Made by a program: the position numbers and the translations under genes. Below the pieces are notes generated by a model. That model was not told the DNA's origin. It saw only the letters and a program-made list of their open reading frames with translations, and ran no database searches. From the NCBI RefSeq assembly GCF_040838345.1, contig NZ_JBAKFF010000001.1:62001-126000 (forward strand): a stretch of 64,000 bases of DNA. The letters run 5' to 3'. This document shows positions 51,634 to 54,161 of this stretch, one piece after another (position 1 is the stretch's first letter; the number at the start of each line of letters is the position of its first letter). The stretch is from Spiribacter sp. 1M189 (GTDB lineage Bacteria > Pseudomonadota > Gammaproteobacteria > Nitrococcales > Nitrococcaceae).

Positions 51634-52122
51634 TCAGTTGACTCGGTAGGCGCGGCGCAGGAAGCGCAGCAGCAGGAAAACCGGCGGCCAGATCAGCGTG
51701 CTGGTGAGCACCGGGAGCCAGAACTGCCAGTCGAGTGCCGGTGCGTTCATCAGGCTTCGCGTCGTGAACAGCGCACTGCGGACCAGGAGGAGCAGCAGCA
51801 GCACGGTCAGGGCCTGTTGCCAGACCGGGAAGTTGCGGATGCGCTGGTAGAGCTGAATGGTCAGATAGGCGGCCAGGGCGAAGGCGAGGGCGTGCGAGCC
51901 GAGCGGCGTTGCCTGAAGGACGTCCTGCAGCAGTCCCACCAGCCAGGCGATGCCGACGCCCACCCGTGAGGGCAGGGCGAGGCTCCAGTAGATGATGACC
52001 AGCATGGTCCACTCCGGCCGCCACGGCTCAACGGCCGACGGTAACGGCAGCACGGTGAGCACCAGCGCCAGCAGGATGGTGAGCGCGATCAGCCAGCGCC
52101 CGTGTGGCCGCGCGTCATTCAT
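51634..52122 (-). CDS. mreD: Rod-shape-determining protein MreD
   Basis: Small polytopic inner-membrane protein (162 residues, about five hydrophobic helices) of the elongasome. RPEWTMLVIIYWSLALPSRVGVG and GLLQDVLQATPLGSHALAFALAAYL are characteristic. ATG 52122 overlaps the mreC end by eight bases. An in-frame extension further upstream would be antisense-quality, Arg/Ser-rich sequence and is rejected. Confidence 0.93.
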   Translation of the reverse strand: MNDARPHGRWLIALTILLALVLTVLPLPSAVEPWRPEWTMLVIIYWSLALPSRVGVGIAWLVGLLQDVLQATPLGSHALAFALAAYLTIQLYQRIRNFPVWQQALTVLLLLLLVRSALFTTRSLMNAPALDWQFWLPVLTSTLIWPPVFLLLRFLRRAYRVN

Positions 52123-52990
52123 CGTCCGTTTCCGTGCCTGATTCATCAGGCAGATCCATCGCGGCCGCGGCATCGCCCCGCTCGATGAGCAGCACCTCCT
52201 GGACGCGGCCCAGCGCGCCGAGCGGTTCCACCTCCACTTCCGAGAATTCCCGCCCTGGGTTGGTGGTGACGCTGCGCACCTCGCCGACCGGATAGCCCGC
52301 CGGAAAACGCCCGCCCAGCCCCGAGGTGACGAGCAGATCACCGGCGCGGATGTTGGCGTTGTTGGGCAGGCTGCCGATGGTCAGCGTATTGATCCGACCG
52401 GTGCCAAACGCGACGCTGCGCAGGCCGTTGCGATTGACCTGCACCGGAATGCCGTGGCTCGGATCGCTGATGAGACGGACGGTGGCGGTGAATGGCGAGA
52501 CGCGTTCGACCTGGCCGATCACGCCGTCGGCGTCGATGACCGGTTGCCCGACATGGATGCCATCCCGCAGACCCTTGTCGATCTGGATCAGGTGGCTGAA
52601 CGGGTCCAGGTCAACGGCGACCAGCTCGGCGATCAGTACCGGTCGTTCCAGTTCGTAGGAGGAGTCCAGCAGGCTGCGCAGGCGGATGTTCTCCACCTCC
52701 AGGGCGTCAAGACGCTGGAGCCGGGCCTCGTAGATGCGCTGGCGATCCCGCAGGCGCTGGTTTTCGGTGACGAGCTCCCGGCGGCTGGTCAGGGATTGAT
52801 CGGTGAGGCTGGCCAGCCGGTCGGGCAGTCCGGCAATCGCTCGAATCGGGTGGACGGCGGCAGAGAGGGTCTGCCGCGCCGGCTCCAGCAGCCCCTGGCG
52901 GTGATCGACGGCGAGGAGCGCGATCGACAGCAGAGCCAGCAGCACGAACCGTACCGTGGTCGATGGAGCCTGTGTGAATAGTGGTTTGAT
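52115..52990 (-). CDS. mreC: Rod-shape-determining protein MreC, probable ATC start
   Basis: Periplasmic bitopic scaffold of the elongasome. One N-terminal membrane helix (FVLLALLSIALLAV), a coiled coil (SRRELVTENQRLRDRQRIYEARL), then two beta domains ending VTSGLGGRFPAGYPVGEV. In frame, the reading begins IKPLFTQAPSTTVRF, where the family has MKP-[LI]-F. The Ile codon is ATC at 52990-52988, with a perfect GGAGGA (53005-53000) nine bases upstream. The first ordinary start, GTG 52945, has no ribosome site and would remove the cytoplasmic N-terminus. So ATC initiation is my preferred call, giving 291 residues; a sequencing error (ATG to ATC) is the alternative. Confidence 0.88.
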   Translation of the reverse strand: MKPLFTQAPSTTVRFVLLALLSIALLAVDHRQGLLEPARQTLSAAVHPIRAIAGLPDRLASLTDQSLTSRRELVTENQRLRDRQRIYEARLQRLDALEVENIRLRSLLDSSYELERPVLIAELVAVDLDPFSHLIQIDKGLRDGIHVGQPVIDADGVIGQVERVSPFTATVRLISDPSHGIPVQVNRNGLRSVAFGTGRINTLTIGSLPNNANIRAGDLLVTSGLGGRFPAGYPVGEVRSVTTNPGREFSEVEVEPLGALGRVQEVLLIERGDAAAAMDLPDESGTETDDE

Positions 52991-53087
52991 GGCCTGGCGT
53001 CCTCCAGCGAATCGCGTAATGCCAAAAGCCTAGCGAGCGCTCGGTCAAGCCCTCAAGCGCCTCTGCCTCCGGCCCGACCCGCTGGGC

Positions 53088-54161
<1,074 letters not shown>

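Follow-up and report, generated by a model that had tools for sequence, protein, structure and literature searches.

The mreC gene of Spiribacter sp. 1M189 raises the question of where translation of a core cell-shape protein begins when the codon at the expected start is ATC. In the analyzed window, a stretch of 64,000 nucleotides taken from a 1.95 Mb genome, family matches place the genes for MreB, MreC and MreD side by side on the minus strand, and gene order alone points to a mreB-mreC-mreD operon. The operon control gene mreB (53088..54131) starts with ATG, as does mreD (51634..52122; ATG at 52122-52120, MreD family match). The identity of MreC followed from a match to TIGR00219 (184.9 bits, curated cut-off 92.75). 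Its coding sequence of 291 amino acids runs from ATC to TGA (52115..52990) and is separated from mreB by an intergenic leader (52991..53087). Read in the mreC frame, the minus strand shows an in-frame TAG (53032-53030, 14 codons 5' of the ATC), then AFGITRFAGGRQA, and then ATC AAA CCA CTA TTC from position 52990 downwards. The first-pass annotation had placed the initiator at this ATC (52990-52988), preceded at nine bases by a perfect GGAGGA (53005-53000), and had reported no ATG, GTG or TTG between that Shine-Dalgarno (SD) sequence and a GTG at 52945. Coordinates, frame and spacing were all borne out, and the absence of a standard codon proved to extend back to the TAG. The GTG (52943..52945, minus strand, codon +15) is the earliest in-frame standard start.

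For a single genome this is weak evidence, because a stretch of 29 codons will lack a standard start codon by chance in about one gene in four [(61/64)^29]; significance has to come from conservation across the order. A protein search recovered mreC in 58 of 59 genomes, including that of the window itself. The order set consisted of 54 genomes, 52 of which were readable (G021 was unmatched and G033 yielded just a fragment): 42 exact pattern matches, nine genomes read at the same codon, and G040, in which an ATT lies one codon earlier than in the other order genomes. Three loci missed by the start motif (L008, L009 and L095) had their start regions read separately. The codon is ATC in 35 of the 52 genomes, ATT in 17 and ATG in none. 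The expectation that close relatives would keep ATC, ATT or ATA (AUH in the mRNA) was thus clearly confirmed, and a sequencing error at the ATC is ruled out by the same conservation. Moreover, in 42 of the 52 genomes there is no standard codon anywhere between the in-frame stop and the AUH codon. Within the genus, nine genomes have in common the ATC or ATT and the purine-rich site that precedes it, and many flanking bases are variable.

The association extends well beyond the order. We used a profile built from 14 MreC proteins on an even draw from the class, mostly with one genome per family, and matched mreC in 137 of 149 genomes. From these, 133 start regions were taken, of which 132 were readable, that of L351 being masked; two fragments (G113 and G086), a weak match (G083), a match at a contig end (G076) and a second match in G119 were left out. 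In 56 of the 132 genomes an ATC, ATT or ATA lies at most two codons from the aligned start, with no ATG, GTG or TTG from -15 to +12 codons, and in 51 of these 56 it coincides with the aligned position. Another 38 of the 132 have a standard start close by, which in 17 of the 38 falls on the aligned codon itself; the AUH codon is therefore not needed everywhere. The other loci have both kinds of codon nearby (17), a standard codon further off only (14), AUH together with a far standard codon (6) or none of these (1). When 12 of the 17 and 6 mixed loci are assigned to AUH, which was done by hand and mainly on the strength of the SD, the number of class genomes with an AUH start comes to 68 of 132; the other 11 mixed loci, the 14 and the single locus make up the 26 that belong to neither group.

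A class-wide pattern search matched 53 of 370 genomes, several of which are chance matches outside mreC (e.g. L045, L049, L050, L052, L053, L057, L059, L074 and L077). A scan of named genomes for K-P-x-F-x-Q-G-P-S, which is biased by its own pattern where the profile draw is less so, gave 107 ATH, 5 ATG, 2 TTG and 4 other codons among the 118 matches listed, including some that are not mreC or are too short to judge (L113, L123, L139, L173, L182, L215, L217 and L218). The mreC of E. coli starts with ATG. In a draw from the phylum mreC was matched in 49 of 60 genomes, and six mreC loci from other classes have a different N-terminus, with a standard codon at most four codons from the aligned start.

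A conserved isoleucine inside a longer protein would also appear as ATH, in which case translation would start at a non-standard codon further upstream or enter the frame by frameshift. Such an explanation could appeal to the 10 of 52 order genomes that do have an in-frame standard codon upstream of the AUH codon, within 15 codons in five of them. We nevertheless consider it very improbable. An in-frame upstream stop was located for 55 of the 56 class genes that have only AUH, and in 19 of the 55 it lies a mere two to six codons away with no standard codon in between. Where the stop is two codons ahead, the intervening codon differs from genome to genome (ACG, GCC, ACC, GCG). In an alignment of 128 AUH mreC genes, the main conserved upstream feature is the SD at -12 to -8, and strong conservation begins at the AUH codon itself. 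Finally, ATG, TTG and GTG substitute for AUH at this very position.

These substitutions were mapped onto a tree built from 83 MreC proteins, a deliberately chosen and AUH-rich sample (74 AUH and 9 standard; L382 and L383, two of the eleven standard-start proteins picked, are absent) that consequently gives no rate of change to AUG. At the same codon ATG occurs in one clade of six, which contains E. coli, Vibrio and Alginatibacterium, TTG occurs twice (L193 and L253) and GTG once (L279). Branches with good support require the start codon to have changed at least four times; the tree was rooted at its midpoint only, which leaves the ancestral state undecided. AUC, AUU and AUA are exchanged for one another within clades, and the codon stays AUH across much of the class. 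In L253 a TAA directly precedes the TTG. The TTG codons of L193 and L253 are separate replacements inside branches that are otherwise AUH, and would make useful natural controls. Taken together, the comparison strongly supports the ATC at 52990 as the initiator of mreC, that is, an initiator other than AUG, GUG or UUG at the conserved N-terminus of MreC.

A start further downstream, at GTG 52945 or within the part that encodes the membrane helix, would yield a protein without its cytoplasmic tail. The GTG is, after all, the first standard codon in frame, an ATG at +25 is frequent in the mreC genes of relatives, and the published numbering of the Pseudomonas aeruginosa protein begins at the equivalent of +16. 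Among relatives, however, the position of the first standard codon ranges from +12 to +156 (plus-strand loci only), and the ribosome site at the GTG is poor: the predicted anti-SD pairing energy is -3.0 kcal/mol there versus -9.3 kcal/mol at the ATC. The shortened protein would also lose the conserved cytoplasmic tail, part of the membrane helix and five residues (K2, P3, F5, P9 and S10) that 14 diverse MreC proteins all share. A downstream start is accordingly a most improbable reading.

The P. aeruginosa numbering appears in fact to be a case of the shortening that the first-pass annotation had foreseen for mreC in pipelines restricted to ATG, GTG and TTG, an outcome that follows directly from an AUH start. 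In three Pseudomonas-like loci (L374, L375 and L377) the codon at the start position is ATC, and in L374 a TAG lies four codons upstream and the first standard codon is a GTG at +16. The crystallized P. aeruginosa fragment 6ZM0 is designated MreC 97-258 (PMC8137920), and residue 2 of its chain aligns with position 112 of the L374 protein counted from the ATC. If the chain of 164 residues has two vector residues ahead of residue 97, then residue 97 corresponds to position 113, an offset of 16, and residue 1 of the published protein would correspond to the GTG at +16. The same paper assigns to the first 14 residues the cytoplasmic part as well as the membrane region (PMC8137920), for which 14 residues is short. 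Judging from the numbering, published P. aeruginosa MreC therefore seems to begin 16 codons late. By implication many MreC proteins in the databases lack the cytoplasmic tail, apparently including the one behind this structure numbering.

With the ATC as the start, translation of mreC would begin at 52990, guided by the strong GGAGGA, and the initiator tRNA would presumably be used, so that the first residue is formyl-methionine. AUC is a near-cognate start codon that is discriminated against by initiation factor IF3. From the general behaviour of AUH starts, initiation at the mreC AUC is expected to be slower than at an AUG with the same site. The strong SD partly offsets the weak start codon. 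AUH mreC genes in general carry a strong SD at a suitable spacing: the mean pairing energy is -7.20 kcal/mol for the 56 AUH genes versus -3.52 kcal/mol for the 38 genes with a standard start (p = 6e-8, related genomes being treated as independent), and a value of -5 or lower is reached by 48 of the former and 11 of the latter. Since the lineages with a standard start have the weaker SD, the pattern suggests that selection acts on the total rate of initiation and not on the codon itself. AUH with a strong SD and a standard codon with a weak SD may be two designs with perhaps a similar output, and such natural pairs would allow a test of whether start codons set stoichiometry.

We found mreB in 150 of 178 loci, some of which share one genome, and all 150 have a standard start when called by the nearest-codon rule (139 ATG, 10 TTG and 1 GTG). 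The distance from the mreB stop to the mreC start has a median of 95.5 bases (132 loci). At its other end mreC overlaps mreD, in the window by 8 bases (52115-52122, the TGA at 52117-52115 lying beyond the mreD ATG at 52122-52120); this length is supported by the MreD family match, where the rule of taking the leftmost ATG gave 32 bases. Among 128 mreC genes, 118 loci were resolved and 95 of these show an overlap, of exactly 4 bases in 67; with mreD starts taken as the leftmost ATG, overlap lengths other than 4 bases are unsure. Because of the overlap, a single weak initiation event could limit both proteins and might keep MreC as well as MreD low relative to MreB.

The likely reason for such an arrangement is dose. 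MreC turns on the PBP2-RodA synthase, and a surplus of it misshapes E. coli cells. Excess MreC makes these cells shorter and wider, and MreD counteracts the shortening (PMC7793260). We regard it as likely that the start of mreC is conserved, is discriminated against by IF3 and restricts MreC and, via the overlap, MreD relative to MreB. The weak start codon probably holds the dose of MreC down, and both this effect and control by IF3 would follow by analogy with known AUH starts. An unlikely but more serious competitor accepts AUH as the start and regards it as kept by drift or inertia, slightly weak, compensated and without regulatory value. The strong SD does compensate, and several lineages have a standard start in place of AUH. 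Neither the persistence of AUH while AUC, AUU and AUA interchange within clades, with AUG a single base change away, nor the weak SD of the standard-start genes is easily explained in this manner; the latter is what one would expect if the output were constrained.

To our knowledge, few conserved non-standard start codons have been described, and the present one belongs to a core cell-shape gene. A close parallel is infC, which encodes IF3 itself and shares with mreC a conserved AUH start and a strong SD, but differs in being autoregulated by its product; any control of mreC by IF3 would run one way, as MreC is not known to take part in initiation. The host genome has such an infC (L238, G000:C1:943940-944146), which starts at ATC in the order SD, TGA, AGC, ATC. 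Of 27 infC loci from relatives, 26 have the ATC where it is expected, L235 being the exception, and the infC of L232 has an additional ATG two codons past the ATC. E. coli pcnB resembles mreC in its AUU start. The sigR gene of Streptomyces resembles mreC in having a non-standard start within an operon, an extensive SD and misannotation in databases, and its start holds one protein at a lower level than the operon partner (PMC5472188). It differs in that the codon is GTC or GTT, kept in 34 of 34 Streptomyces examined, whereas the mreC codon is AUH over a class, and in that repression of the GTC start by IF3 has been demonstrated (PMC5472188), whereas for mreC it is predicted. The genes ccpN (AUA) and cvfC1 (AUU) of Staphylococcus likewise combine a conserved AUH start with an extended SD, and the ccpN start is common to S. 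aureus and B. subtilis (PMC13009471). These are other genes in another phylum, and there the output was measured: in S. aureus the output of AUA and AUU starts with an extended SD was about 10% of that of AUG when the medium was poor, and the ccpN start reached up to 30% of AUG in rich medium (PMC13009471). The titles and abstract openings of the best literature matches, among which few subscription papers were covered, contained no report of a non-standard start for mreC.

A wider reading is possible but doubtful. Beside infC, mreC might be a class-wide gene read by IF3, such that the supply of the elongasome activator MreC, and of MreD coupled to it, follows the condition of the initiation machinery and ties wall elongation to translation capacity. 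As part of the same tentative reading, the clade of E. coli and Vibrio would have swapped AUH for AUG together with a poor ribosome-binding site; if so, the AUH start of mreC would have gone unseen in the main model organism.

The leader between mreB and mreC matched no Rfam family that might indicate control by a leader RNA, and its folding (z = -1.17) gave no significant structure. Folding around the mreC start shows no difference from 101 other genes, which gives no sign that low structure compensates for the codon.

The composition around the start has some further peculiarities. In the 128 AUH mreC genes the start codon is ATC, ATT or ATA with shares of 0.54, 0.23 and 0.23, versus 0.68, 0.27 and 0.05 for later isoleucine codons of the same genes, and ATA is thus over-represented as a start (23% of AUH starts versus 5% of later isoleucine codons). 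Just upstream, C is preferred at -2 and -1; at -2 it is found in 75% of these AUH mreC genes, and in a second count in 66% of AUH mreC genes versus 29% of standard-start mreC genes and 47% of other genes. At codon 4, which in the window is the leucine codon at 52981-52979, 90 AUH mreC genes have leucine and 59 of them use CTA or TTA for it, versus 7.3 expected from later leucine codons of these genes; in the 101 other genes these two codons account for 18.5% of 54 early leucine codons. This bias is a constraint at the level of the bases just past the mreC start.
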